Source: Bryobacteraceae bacterium (lineage in GTDB: Bacteria > Acidobacteriota > Terriglobia > Bryobacterales > Bryobacteraceae). Taken from it: 64,000 nt of DNA. The DNA is taken from positions 1 through 64,000 of the forward strand of contig JANWXD010000005.1 of NCBI GenBank assembly GCA_025055455.1, read 5' to 3'. The position numbers and the translations under genes are program-made. The notes under the pieces are model-generated. The model saw only the letters and a list, made by a program, of their open reading frames with translations, did not search any database and had not been told where the DNA came from. How positions within the stretch are numbered: the first letter of the stretch is position 1; each line of letters starts with the position of its first letter. Positions 39,973 through 45,768 of this stretch are shown here, piece by piece.

Positions 39973-40113
39973 TGGCTCCCCGCTCAGGCCTTGCGTGGCG
40001 GGATATGTTCGCGCCCGTTTCCGAGCCACTCGTATCCGCTCCTCGGGACGGAACAGTCTAAGATCAGAAGGGGCTCTCAAGATCGAGCCGAGGCCTCGAA
40101 GGATTGGGAAACG

Positions 40114-41520
40114 ATGCCAACCGCACTGATGCGCATAACGCTTGCCGTCTTGGGGTGCGGCGCGGGGCTGCTGGCGCATGCCGCCGCCCGCCAGACCGCC
40201 CTGGATCGCTACGTCCGAGCGCCGGACCCCAGCTACCGCTACGAGCTGGTCTCGACGTTGAGCGGTCCCGGCTACACCGCATTTGTCCTCGATATGGTCT
40301 CGCAAACCTGGCGCAAGCCCGAGGAAGTGGACCGCACCGAGTGGCGGCATTGGCTCACCATCATCAAGCCGGATCAGCTCTCGAGCGACATCGCGCTGCT
40401 GTTCATCACAGGAGGTTCCAACCCGGGCAAGCCGCCGGCGCGGGCGGACCTCATCCTCTCCATGATCGCCACCGAAACCCGCGCGGTGGTCGCCGAGCTG
40501 CGGATGGTGCCCAACCAGCCTCTGAAGTTTGCCGGCGACTCGATGGCCGAGCGGCGCGAAGACGCCCTCATCGCCTACACCTGGGACCGGTTTTTGCGCA
40601 CCGGCGACGAGCTCTGGCCGGCGCGTCTGCCCATGACCAAAGCCGCAGTCCGAGCCATGGACACCGTGACGGCGTTCTGCGCCACCGAGGCCGCGGGCCA
40701 GCTGCGGATCGAGCGCTACGTGGTGGCCGGAGGGTCCAAGCGCGGCTGGACCGCATGGACCACCGCCGCCGTGGATCCTCGGGTGGTGGCGATCGCCCCG
40801 ATCGTGATCAACACGCTGAACGTGGAACGGGCCTCCGAGCATCACTGGCGCTCCTACGGGTTCTGGGCGCCGGCTTTGCGGGACTACGTCGAGATGGACA
40901 TCGTGCGGTGGATGGGAACGCCCGAGCTGCGCCGGCTGATGGAAATCGAGGATCCCTATGCATACCGCGAGCGCCTGAGCATGCCCAAGTTCATCGTCAA
41001 CTCCACCGGCGACGAGTTCTTCCCCCCGGACTTGGTGCGCTTTTATTACGACGACTTGCCCGGGGAGAAGCATTTGCGCTTCGTACCGAACACGAATCAC
41101 TCGCTGCGCGGCTCCGACGCAGCGCAAAGCCTGCTGGCGTACTTCCACTCCATCGTGACCGGCCGCAAGCGTCCCCAGTTGCAGTGGACCTTCGAGGGGG
41201 AAGGGATCGTGCGCGTGACCACTTCCGAGCCGCCCTCGGAAGTGAAGTTGTGGCAGGCCACCAATCCCAAGGCCCGGGATTTCCGCTTGGAAACCCTGGG
41301 CGCGGTCTGGACCAGCTCGCCGGTCGAGGCCGCCGATGGAGTCTGGCGCGCCGCCGTGCCACCACCGCCGGAGGGCTGGACCGCCTACTTTCTGGAATTC
41401 ACCTTCCCGAGCGGGACGAAATTCCCGTTCAAGTTCACGACGCCAGTGCGCGTGGTTCCGGATCGCCTGCCGTTTCCGGCCCCCGAACCGCGGCGAGCGA
41501 GCGGGGCGGGCGTCCGCTAG
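40114..41520 (+). CDS. Secreted PhoPQ-activated pathogenicity-related (AprA-like) protein
   Basis: 468 residues. A signal peptide (about 1-27, MRITLAVLGCGAGLLAHAAA within it) is followed by an alpha/beta-hydrolase-like domain of the PhoPQ_related family: LFITGGSNPG near 101, VVAGGSKRGWTAW near 207, NSTGDEFFPPD near 300 and VPNTNHSLRG near 328. The GGSKRG nucleophile elbow, Asp in GDEF and His in NHSL form a plausible triad. The C-terminal part looks like a beta-sandwich. The substrate is unknown. The ATG at 40114 is chosen; TAAGAT at 40059-40064 could be its -10. Confidence 0.85.
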   Translation: MPTALMRITLAVLGCGAGLLAHAAARQTALDRYVRAPDPSYRYELVSTLSGPGYTAFVLDMVSQTWRKPEEVDRTEWRHWLTIIKPDQLSSDIALLFITGGSNPGKPPARADLILSMIATETRAVVAELRMVPNQPLKFAGDSMAERREDALIAYTWDRFLRTGDELWPARLPMTKAAVRAMDTVTAFCATEAAGQLRIERYVVAGGSKRGWTAWTTAAVDPRVVAIAPIVINTLNVERASEHHWRSYGFWAPALRDYVEMDIVRWMGTPELRRLMEIEDPYAYRERLSMPKFIVNSTGDEFFPPDLVRFYYDDLPGEKHLRFVPNTNHSLRGSDAAQSLLAYFHSIVTGRKRPQLQWTFEGEGIVRVTTSEPPSEVKLWQATNPKARDFRLETLGAVWTSSPVEAADGVWRAAVPPPPEGWTAYFLEFTFPSGTKFPFKFTTPVRVVPDRLPFPAPEPRRASGAGVR

Positions 41521-41655: not shown

Positions 41656-44600
41656 ATGGATCGCACAAATGAAAACACCTTGGCTTGGTTCGCGATTTGC
41701 CTCGCCGGAGTGTTCTTGTCCGCCTCCTCCGCGTGGGCGGAAACCGTCAAACGCATCGCCATTGTTTGGAGACACGGCCCGACGGAAGGCACGATCGAGG
41801 TAGGCCGCGGCAAACTGGTCAACCTCACCTCCGTCGCGCGCCCCGCGACAGTGCGTGGCAACACCTTCCGGCACGAGGGACGGGAGGAGTACCGTCTCCA
41901 CCTCGAAATCGAGGATAGCGGGGCGCCGTTCGGACACGCCGCCACGCTGGTGACGGTGAGCGCCGCTCGGAACCCCTTCAGCTTCTTCCTGCGCGATGTC
42001 CATTCCAGATTTCCGATTTTTCTTCCGGCTTACGGGGTCGTGGTCACCGAGGCGGAGGACCTTCGATCCTATGGGGCCATCGCCGAGGATCTCCGCAGCC
42101 GCGGGTTGCTGACGGGATTGCAAGAGATCGAGAACGAGCCGGAGGAGTCGTTCGAATCGGCGGCATCGAAGACACGGAGCCTCAAGGTTCCGACCTGGTT
42201 GGGGATGAGTCGGGACATTCGCATCTTCGCGGTCAGCGAGCGCCTGGACTGGATCCAACCGCGCTTTCATGGCTACGAAGTGACATTACCGGAGACCGGC
42301 GACCGGCCAGTCCGGTATCAGTTCCTGATGGGGCGCGGATGGGGCCCACGGGAACGGATCACCCGGCGCTTGGAAGACGGGATCTTACCGATTCTCCGCG
42401 GCCGTCTCGACGACGGCAGGATCACGTACGAGTTCACGGCCTTCGTCGGACTGGAGGGGAAGCCTCCCACGGCGCTTCGGGGAACCCATTTTCTAGTCGC
42501 CGACGGCTACGGAAGAGGGCATGTGTTCACTGCGGAGCAACGCAAGCGGTTCGAGGAGCTTCGTGACACGGAGCTCAACCAACCGGAGGAGACCATCCTC
42601 TACCTGGCGGCCGTCGCGGTCAATCGCTCCCGGGCTCCCGCGTACGCCTTCTTCAAGTCGGTGTGGCCCCAAGGCGTTGCCGCGGACCAATGGTCGTTCG
42701 ACCCCGGCTACGGCTTCAGCATGTACCGAAGCGGCCGTGTCTTCGCCGTTTCCAAGCTGAACGGTAAGCCTCTGGCTCACGATGAGGTGGCGATCCTGCT
42801 GCAACCCGGCGAGAGCGCCACGCTCGAGGTGTACTTGCCCCACCGGCCCATTGCGAAGGAACGGGCGCTCCGGCTGGCTCGCCAGAGTTTTGCCGAGCGT
42901 CACGCAGAAATCCGGCAATTTTGGCAACAGAAGCTCGCCCGGGCCGCGCAGATTCACGTACCCGAGCGCCGCATTGCGGAAATGATTCGGGCGGGCCTCC
43001 TCCACCTCGACCTAGTTGCCTACGGGCTCGAGCCCGGTGGCACTTTGACCCCGACCATCGGCGTATATACAGCGATTGGATCGGAGAGTTCGCCGATCAT
43101 TCAGTTCGTGGACTCGATGGGGTGGCACGACGTGGCCCGGCGCGCCCTGACATATTTTCTCGAAAAGCAACACGAAAGCGGCTTCATGCAGAACTTCGAC
43201 GCGTACATGCTCGAAACCGGAGCCGCTCTTTGGAGCCTGGGCGAGCATTTCCGATACACGCGAGACGTGGAGTGGGTTCGACAGATCGCTCCGAAACTGA
43301 TTCGGGCCTGTGAATATCAGGCCAAGTGGCGTCAACGGAACATGCGAGAAGATCTTCGCGGCAAGGGATACGGGATGCTGGACGGCAAAACCGCGGACCC
43401 CGAAGACCCTTACCGTTCGTTCATGCTGAACGGGTATGCGTACCTCGGCTTCCGCCGCGTGGCGGAAATGCTCGAGAGCGTGGCGCCGCAAGAGTCCCGC
43501 CGGTGGCGCCAGGAAGCGGAGGCCCTGAAAAAGGATATCCGCACCGCTCTCCAGGAGGTCCTCGGGCGATCCCCCGTAGTGCCCCTCGGCGACGGCACCT
43601 GGTGTCCCACCGTGCCCCCGTGGGCGGAGTACCGGGGTCCCTTGCTGTTGATGGCGGACGGAGGGCGGTGGTTTACTCATGGGGCCATGACCAGCCGGGA
43701 CTCGTTGCTGGGACCGATCTACTTGATCTTCCAAGAAGTCGTGGATCCGAAGGAAGACATCGCGGATTTTCTATTGAATTTCCACCACGAGCTTATGACG
43801 GATCTCAACGTTGCTTTCAGCCAGCCCTATTACAGTCGGCATCCGATGGCCCACTTGCGTCGGGGCGAGGTGAAGCCGTTTCTGAAGGCATACTATAACA
43901 CGGTAGCGAGCTTGGCGGACCGCGAAACTTACACGTTTTACGAGCATTACTTTGGGGCAAGCCCGCACAAAACCCATGAGGAAGCTTGGTTTCTCATGGA
44001 TACGCGGTGGATGTTGTACATGGAAAGAGGCGACACGCTCGAGTTATTGGCCGGAATTCCGCGCGTTTGGTTGGAAGGGGACCAACGCATCCGTCTCGAC
44101 CGCGCCGCGAGCTACTTTGGGCCTTTGTCGCTCGAGGTTATCTCGCAATTAGAGACGCAGAATGAGATTCGCGCCACCGTGACCTGCACGTCGGACCGCA
44201 AGCCGCGGCGCGTGGTGCTCCGTCTGCCTCATCCCAAGGGTCTGCGAGCCGTCTGGGTGGATGGGGGCCGATACGACGCCCGGCAGGAACGGGTTGTCAT
44301 CGAAAACTTCACGGGGAAGGCCCACGTGGCGGTGGGATTCCAACCCCGGGACCGCAGCCGCCGGCAGCAGCAGACCGGGACTTCGGCCCGTGACGCCGCT
44401 TTCGCGGCGCGCCTACTTCGCCGGCTTTTGCACGCGCCCCGAACGGAGGCAGCGGGTGCACACGCGCAGGCGCCGCACGCCTCCGTTGACGACCGCGCGC
44501 ACCCGTTGCAAGTTCACGCTCCACTTACGGCTGGTGACATTGTGCGCGTGGCTGATCCGGTGCCCGAAACGGGGCCCGCGCCCACAAATTTCGCATACCC

Positions 44601-44673
44601 TAGCCATGAGCGATGGAAACCTCCGAAGGCGAATTTGTATTTTAGCATGAGCCTCGGCGCACCTGTGGCATAA
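41656..44673 (+). CDS. Large secreted six-hairpin-glycosidase-like protein with aberrant C-terminus
   Basis: 1005 residues. A signal peptide (about 1-28) and a roughly 400-residue beta-rich N-terminal part are followed by an (alpha/alpha)6-type region (about 440-780), recognisable by repeated motifs such as IQFVDSMGWHDVARRALTYFLEKQ, ALWSLGEHFRYTRD and YAYLGFRRVAEML. This layout is that of six-hairpin glycoside hydrolases; the GH family and catalytic residues were not assigned. A beta domain ends near residue 895 (VAVGFQPRD). The last about 105 residues are antisense to rpmB and look non-native. A TGA at 44391 lies in another frame, so a small frameshift may have removed the true stop. Confidence 0.75.
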   Translation: MDRTNENTLAWFAICLAGVFLSASSAWAETVKRIAIVWRHGPTEGTIEVGRGKLVNLTSVARPATVRGNTFRHEGREEYRLHLEIEDSGAPFGHAATLVTVSAARNPFSFFLRDVHSRFPIFLPAYGVVVTEAEDLRSYGAIAEDLRSRGLLTGLQEIENEPEESFESAASKTRSLKVPTWLGMSRDIRIFAVSERLDWIQPRFHGYEVTLPETGDRPVRYQFLMGRGWGPRERITRRLEDGILPILRGRLDDGRITYEFTAFVGLEGKPPTALRGTHFLVADGYGRGHVFTAEQRKRFEELRDTELNQPEETILYLAAVAVNRSRAPAYAFFKSVWPQGVAADQWSFDPGYGFSMYRSGRVFAVSKLNGKPLAHDEVAILLQPGESATLEVYLPHRPIAKERALRLARQSFAERHAEIRQFWQQKLARAAQIHVPERRIAEMIRAGLLHLDLVAYGLEPGGTLTPTIGVYTAIGSESSPIIQFVDSMGWHDVARRALTYFLEKQHESGFMQNFDAYMLETGAALWSLGEHFRYTRDVEWVRQIAPKLIRACEYQAKWRQRNMREDLRGKGYGMLDGKTADPEDPYRSFMLNGYAYLGFRRVAEMLESVAPQESRRWRQEAEALKKDIRTALQEVLGRSPVVPLGDGTWCPTVPPWAEYRGPLLLMADGGRWFTHGAMTSRDSLLGPIYLIFQEVVDPKEDIADFLLNFHHELMTDLNVAFSQPYYSRHPMAHLRRGEVKPFLKAYYNTVASLADRETYTFYEHYFGASPHKTHEEAWFLMDTRWMLYMERGDTLELLAGIPRVWLEGDQRIRLDRAASYFGPLSLEVISQLETQNEIRATVTCTSDRKPRRVVLRLPHPKGLRAVWVDGGRYDARQERVVIENFTGKAHVAVGFQPRDRSRRQQQTGTSARDAAFAARLLRRLLHAPRTEAAGAHAQAPHASVDDRAHPLQVHAPLTAGDIVRVADPVPETGPAPTNFAYPSHERWKPPKANLYFSMSLGAPVA
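44394..44409. terminator. Small hairpin downstream of rpmB
   Basis: CGCCGC (44394-44399) and GCGGCG (44404-44409) close a four-base loop, GAAA on the minus strand. It lies four bases after the rpmB stop and just past an out-of-frame TGA at 44391 of the convergent gene. No T tract follows, so it is a weak candidate. Confidence 0.35.
44413..44607 (-). CDS. rpmB: 50S ribosomal protein L28
   Basis: 64 residues, standard L28 length. MARVCEICGRGPRFGHRISH at the start and LQRVRAVVNGGVRRLRVCTRC near 33-53 are diagnostic. Four cysteines (C5, C8 and the CTRC pair) make it the zinc-ribbon (C+) form of L28. GGAGG lies twelve bases before the ATG on the minus strand. The whole gene lies antisense within the 3' end of the convergent glycosidase-like reading frame. 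Confidence 0.95.
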   Translation of the reverse strand: MARVCEICGRGPRFGHRISHAHNVTSRKWSVNLQRVRAVVNGGVRRLRVCTRCLRSGRVQKPAK

Positions 44674-44684
44674 TCGGTTCCAGC

Positions 44685-45101
44685 ATGGGCCGGTTGAGCC
44701 GCATCGGAGTCGCCATCGACTCGGATCTGCTCCGCAAGTTCGACGCGTTGATTCACCGCCGGGGCTACACCAACCGCTCGGAAGCCTTCCGGGACCTGAT
44801 CCGCAGCGAGCTGATCGGAGAAACGGCCCAATCCCCGGAAAGTCCGGTGGTGGCCACGTTGACGCTGGTCTACGATCATCACGTGCGCATGCTCGCCGAC
44901 AAGCTCACTGACCTCCAACACGAGCACTATCCCAACATCCTCTCGACCTTGCACGTCCACCTCGATCCGGACCACTGCCTCGAGGTGCTGGTGCTCAAGG
45001 GCAAGGCGGGAGCAGTGCGAAAAATCGCGGACCGTCTGCTCGCCACCAAGGGGGTCAAACACGGGCGCCTCACCATCACGACGACAGGCGAGGGACTCTG
45101 A
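44685..45101 (+). CDS. nikR: Nickel-responsive regulator NikR
   Basis: 138 residues. The N-terminal ribbon-helix-helix (SRIGVAIDSDLLRKFDALI, then YTNRSEAFRDLIR) is followed by an ACT-like metal domain with DHHVR, then LHVHLDPDHCLEV carrying the His/His/Cys nickel ligands. NikR represses nickel uptake genes when loaded with Ni. No nickel transporter, urease or hydrogenase catalytic gene is in the window; a HybAB-like pair lies 8-10 kb upstream. CATAAT at 44669-44674 lies ten bases before the ATG. Confidence 0.93.
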   Translation: MGRLSRIGVAIDSDLLRKFDALIHRRGYTNRSEAFRDLIRSELIGETAQSPESPVVATLTLVYDHHVRMLADKLTDLQHEHYPNILSTLHVHLDPDHCLEVLVLKGKAGAVRKIADRLLATKGVKHGRLTITTTGEGL

Positions 45102-45120
45102 GTCGGGACCCTTGGCGGCG

Positions 45121-45768
45121 TCAACTGCGGGTACGCCCCACAGCCTGGGCGGCCGCCTCCGGCGCGCCGCGCAACTGGGCCTCTTCCAAGCGCTTGCTCT
45201 CTTGCCAGGTGTAGATCATGCGGTGCATCACGGTGATGTTGGAAAGGACCGCGATCACCCATAACACGGGCGCCATGCGGTCGAACAAGGCCCCGATGAT
45301 GAGCAGCACCACACGCTCCGGACGCTCCATGAAGCCGACCTTGCACTGCGGAATCACCAGTTCGGCCCGCGCCCGCGTGTAACTCACCATGACCGATCCG
45401 GTCATGACCACCGCCGTCAGCACCACGTAAAAAAAGCGGTTGATCGAGGCGTAATAGACCAGCAGCCCCATCAGGAGCACGAGGTCGGAATACCGGTCGA
45501 GCACCGAGTCGAAAAACCCGCCAAACCGCGTCACTCGGTTGGTCTGGCGCGCGACCCGGCCGTCCACCATGTCGAAAATTCCGGCTCCGATCATCACCAG
45601 CCCGGCGGTGAAGAACTGGCCCGAGGCCAGCAGCACCGCCGCCACGCCGTTAATCACCAACCCGAGAAAGGTGAGGACGTTAGGGTGGATTCTCGAGAGG
45701 GCCAAAGCCCGTACGATCAGAAGGATCACCTTGTTACAGGCGATCCCGATAGCGCGCGTGTACGTCAT
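45121..45768 (-). CDS. CDP-alcohol phosphatidyltransferase
   Basis: 215 residues with about six helices. The catalytic motif D-G-x2-A-R-x8-G-x3-D-x3-D is complete (DGRVAR near 69, then GGFFDSVLD). Such enzymes make phospholipids by swapping CMP for an alcohol, e.g. phosphatidylglycerol-phosphate or phosphatidylinositol-phosphate; the alcohol cannot be told. It follows greA with 24 bases between. It converges on nikR. Confidence 0.9.
   Translation of the reverse strand: MTYTRAIGIACNKVILLIVRALALSRIHPNVLTFLGLVINGVAAVLLASGQFFTAGLVMIGAGIFDMVDGRVARQTNRVTRFGGFFDSVLDRYSDLVLLMGLLVYYASINRFFYVVLTAVVMTGSVMVSYTRARAELVIPQCKVGFMERPERVVLLIIGALFDRMAPVLWVIAVLSNITVMHRMIYTWQESKRLEEAQLRGAPEAAAQAVGRTRS

Follow-up and report, generated by a model that had tools for sequence, protein, structure and literature searches.

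A glycosidase-like gene that runs antisense through the whole of rpmB in a Bryobacteraceae bacterium, probably after loss of its stop codon

Why does a gene for a secreted glycosidase-like protein run on, on the opposite strand, through a complete ribosomal protein gene? In the window (the whole 64,000-nucleotide stretch of DNA analysed here, from a Bryobacteraceae bacterium) rpmB lies entirely within one such ORF (Table 1). The first-pass annotation had described an ORF running through all of rpmB on the other strand, and this is borne out, the frame being open over its full length. The rpmB product matches L28 in Pfam (8.9e-22) and NCBIfam (TIGR00009, 2.5e-22), and a genome search found one copy of the gene. 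With 64 codons it is of normal length, compared with 63–65 in 17 distinct short-type rpmB genes of relatives. The overlap has practical consequences for annotation: the predicted product would have 1005 residues instead of the ∼895 of the family protein, and rpmB could be discarded because it overlaps a longer ORF. Were the tail translated, the locus would offer a clean example of new protein sequence arising from the antisense of an essential gene.

Table 1. Features of the overlap, in window coordinates.
Feature	Position	Strand	Remarks
ORF	41656-44673	+	1005 codons, open throughout
Ancestral part, secreted six-hairpin-glycosidase-like protein	41656..44340	+	895 codons; N-terminal signal-peptide-like helix; assigned from orthologues and predicted fold
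Non-ancestral tail	44341..44673	+	110 codons and stop; absent from 76/76 usable homologues
rpmB, ribosomal protein L28	44413..44607	-	Pfam PF00830, TIGR00009
Out-of-frame TGA	44391..44393	+	Frame one base behind the ORF; from frame arithmetic and a chance estimate
6-bp hairpin between the two gene ends	44394..44409		No T-run on either side; directly 3' of the TGA

Where the protein family ends

Of 99 loci in the genome collection 80 were retained as homologues, and to these came orthologues from the same bacterial family, found at E up to 1e-100 in 10 of 236 other genomes (57–66% identity). For the alignment of ends 76 of 89 loci were usable; the 13 dropped had a match that started late or ended early, N or an early stop, the match being broken at an early stop in L060, L064 and L110. 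With codon 895 of the window as reference, the end falls at exactly this position in 54 of the 76 homologues, two residues before it in two (L099, L101) and 1–15 residues after it in 20, whereas the window ORF continues for 110. Nine of the later enders exceed the reference by one residue, three by two, three by three, and one each by 4, 5, 6, 10 and 15. The ten orthologues from the same bacterial family end 0–5 residues past codon 895 and none has the tail. The frame of the ORF is homologous through codon 895, where the window reads NFTGKAHVAVGF and two homologues read NFSGEARVEVGF (L117) and NFTGKARVVLRF (L176). In a separate count, 85 of 86 loci had an end, always within 22 residues of where the match stopped, the rows of L060, L064 and L110 being unreliable.

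These results agree with the earlier suggestion that the recognisable protein stops near 44345 and that the tail lies outside the family, since all 76 usable homologues end between -2 and +15 of codon 895. Homologues sharing the long tail, named in advance as the observation that would speak against the suggestion, were looked for and none was present among the 76. Judged by these alignments, the tail is not ancestral. The first-pass annotation was right to call it antisense to rpmB, but its positions were slightly off: the protein ends at 44340 (codon 895), not 44345, and 110 codons follow, not 105. The core family (41656-44340) has members at ∼39–65% identity among records with the labels Acidobacteria, Verrucomicrobia/Opitutaceae, Bacteroidetes, Paenibacillus, Planctomycetota and others.

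The tail and the frame antisense to rpmB

The tail consists of 24 codons before rpmB, 65 facing rpmB with its stop codon and 21 past its start codon. Codons of the ORF and of rpmB are exactly in register, and only the rpmB codons TTA, CTA or TCA could stop the ORF. We collected rpmB at 50 loci of the bacterial family, from a genome sample that excluded G156 and G157; eight loci without a hit at 1e-3 by the L28 of the window were left out, and the other 42 rows hold 39 distinct sequences (window excluded). The in-register antisense frame is stop-free in 35 of these 39, including all 17 of the short type, and in eight of the 39 it continues without a stop for 24 codons or more beyond the end of rpmB. 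When the window and three repeated sequences are included (43 rows), the other two antisense frames are stop-free in 7 and 0. Because TTA, CTA and TCA are mostly missing from rpmB of the family, a run through the whole gene is the usual outcome when the stop has been lost and no other in-frame stop lies in the gap. When open frames of > 200 codons in the window were read past their own stop, 34 of 133 stayed open for at least 109 codons, although the 133 probably include many antisense frames that are not genes. L154, with an open antisense frame and an ORF of 406 codons, was considered as a second case and taken as a chance ORF. Its 406-codon frame faces rpmB and a 286-codon minus-strand ORF, the product of which is presumably fumarylacetoacetase-like.

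Within the bacterial family rpmB comes in two forms, short (63–65 codons) and long (73–78 codons), the long with 34–47% identity to the short; the short copy in the window has two CxxC pairs. The nikR gene (44685-45101) is divergent from rpmB, 77 bases apart, and was found beside rpmB in 0 of 20 regions from relatives at 1e-6.

The tail gave no Pfam match at E up to 1, and none of 46 pattern matches in viral contigs was confirmed as a relative; we therefore rejected the tail as a separate domain. Matches at 34–48% in other genomes were likewise rejected as true relatives. Those comparable with rpmB loci are the antisense strand of rpmB (G034:C618, G030:C30, G027:C115, G047:C45, G044:C303 and G001:C216, among others), a check that covered the comparable matches and left out class-level ones such as G083, G089 and G093. 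The comparable matches thus reflect conservation of L28 and not of the tail. In the predicted structure (see below) block means of pLDDT are 51–70 for residues 901–930 and 25–31 for residues 931–1005, values that are partly built in, as no homologue in the structure alignment covers the tail. Two short helices are predicted with middling confidence, at 900–907 and 911–926. The frame-0 codon-usage score falls from about 0.15–0.28 before 44320 to between -0.11 and -0.32 in 120-nt segments starting at 44380–44560. The drop says little, because rpmB in its own frame scores -0.129 on the same scale.

Probable loss of the stop codon and its alternatives

We consider it probable, at about 0.7, that the original stop, directly or a few codons past codon 895, was lost by a small frame-preserving change, either a point mutation or an assembly error. 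A stop at or just after codon 896 would have disappeared, either in the organism or only in the assembly, and translation would then continue in the unchanged frame, which is open by chance for the 24 codons of the gap. From there the frame happens to match exactly the codon register of rpmB on the opposite strand, meets no stop and ends 21 codons past the rpmB start. A single transition would turn codon 896, which occupies the column of the stop in most homologues, into a stop codon. Such a codon is not rare enough to prove a substitution, yet we infer a substitution, not an indel, as the cause of the loss. The genus is represented by this one genome and the ancestral stop is not seen at this very locus; an indel just after codon 895 could also have been involved, because the orthologues are only 57–66% identical.

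The first-pass annotation had instead proposed a frameshift of one or two bases, real or a sequencing error, which we place between 44341 and 44390 and which would have put the protein out of a frame ending at the TGA at 44391, directly before a hairpin. The TGA and hairpin are both there, they adjoin, and the TGA is out of frame, one base behind the ORF. As the original stop, however, it would imply that the ancestral protein went on for 16 or 17 residues past codon 895, further than any of the 76 homologues and well beyond the 0–5 of the ten family orthologues; L043, with a tail of 15 residues, comes nearest. A frameshift is also superfluous, since frame 0 is homologous to the usual last codon (that of 54 of the 76 homologues) and in-frame loss of the stop explains the tail alone. 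How likely a stop is to arise by chance within 72 nt in either of the other two frames depends on the dinucleotide make-up assumed: with that of the G+C-rich gap itself such a stop is expected in only 10%, which favours a frameshift, and with that of the surrounding 12 kb in 59%, which does not. The codon-usage scores of the gap, 0.017 in frame against -0.503 in the TGA frame (∼ -0.42 of which is stop penalty), do not speak for the TGA frame but come from 24 codons, too few to decide between frames. A frameshift toward the TGA is not supported by these data and we regard it as unlikely; the TGA is probably incidental. On sequence comparison we prefer stop loss, the simpler event given a frame that is homologous through the usual last codon. 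The hairpin was rejected as a terminator or regulatory element between the genes: it has no T-run and its stability is unremarkable (plus strand, z -1.1, 30 of 200 shuffles folding at least as well; minus strand, z -0.9, 39 of 200), and no terminator-like site was found in 44100-45200. A further alternative, that two separate pieces were misassembled between 44340 and 44413 with removal of the true gene end, we hold to be very improbable. It would fit an assembly in 145 contigs and the observation that the two genes are neighbours in none of the 20 rpmB and 10 orthologue regions. In relatives, the 20 regions around rpmB, taken as ∼ 4 kb to either side or up to the contig end, yielded no glycosidase-like gene at 1e-6, and rpmB was not found in the ten orthologue regions, four of which (L002, L117, L177 and L178) reach a contig end within about 2.6 kb downstream of the glycosidase-like gene. 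The two genes are on different contigs in G002, G026, G032, G037, G055, G056 and G197, and rpmB was not found in G154, a genome with an orthologue. Against a misassembly, the tetranucleotide correlation between the 10 kb on either side is 0.974, compared with 0.939–0.977 at 12 other split points, a measure that is blind to joins within the genome. A chimera with a compositional break at the joint was likewise rejected, as tetranucleotide composition revealed none.

A functional overlap, in which the 110-residue tail is translated and selected as a new C-terminus from the antisense of a ribosomal protein gene, has a very low probability in our estimate. The frame is open for 110 codons, two short helices are predicted at 900–926, and 54 of 178 convergent overlaps in bacteria were judged possibly real in the account of Pallejà et al. 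(PMC2478687). The tail, however, occurs in one genome only, matches no family and has a low-confidence predicted structure; the fall in frame-0 codon usage points the same way but weakly, since rpmB itself is at -0.129. A recent origin of a translated C-terminus of 110 residues on the secreted enzyme, drawn from the antisense of an essential ribosomal gene and caught at birth in one lineage, is in our view highly improbable. Most likely the tail has no function and is neutral or slightly harmful.

The overlap has close parallels among those already known. Of 178 convergent overlaps of > 60 bp, Pallejà et al. (2008) assigned 124 to 3'-end extension and treated the other 54 as possibly real; the long overlaps of their category iii are 3'-end extensions that arise by a point mutation in the stop codon or by a frameshift at the 3' end (PMC2478687). 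The window overlap resembles this category as set out there: it is convergent, exceeds 60 bp and involves one gene that is 3'-longer than its orthologues and another of normal length, and the comparison of lengths with orthologues is of the same kind in both studies. By that comparison the ORF is significantly longer at its 3' end (110 versus -2 to 15 residues). The overlap is not conserved in two or more species, the ten family orthologues having no tail and no rpmB found in their regions. Unlike category iii as described, the overlap spans the whole of a small neighbour, although the cases of Pallejà et al. may include such an arrangement (PMC2478687). Movement of stop codons is discussed elsewhere as a source of convergent overlaps (PMC4161906), and the window overlap similarly requires a moved stop codon; compared with the overlaps treated in that account, it is seen in one genome and shows no sign of sharing or selection. 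The case fits the 3'-end extension class of convergent overlaps, an ordinary and already described kind of error or mutation at a gene end.

Predicted fold of the core protein

A structure predicted from the window protein and 47 of the 76 homologues (mean pLDDT 88.1, pTM 0.86) has a confident fold to about residue 894, with the last strand at residues 888–894. A helix is predicted at residues 7–23 and the sequence then reads AWA-E, which looks like the end of a signal peptide. Searched against the PDB with Foldseek, the model was closest, among the matches listed, to GH95, GH94, GH63, GH78-type and related enzymes. The best E value was 8.8e-13 with a probability of 1.00; among the matches listed, TM scores of 0.26–0.41 by query length and identities of ∼8–13% mark the relationship as distant. 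The predicted fold thus resembles these enzymes as a distant match. We take six-hairpin glycosidase to be the class name for this fold.

The whole ORF had no Pfam or NCBIfam match at 0.001, the core had no Pfam match at E up to 1, and none of six other members of the core family scored above the curated cut-off in Pfam. No curated model for a named glycoside hydrolase family matched in Pfam or NCBIfam, and sequence searches of the PDB gave nothing significant (0 matches in one, four at E 0.63–0.72 in another). Given the predicted structure, the label glycosidase-like seems fair for the core. The gene upstream (39991-41520, same strand) encodes a member of the PhoPQ-activated pathogenicity-related family (PF10142, 3.6e-127).
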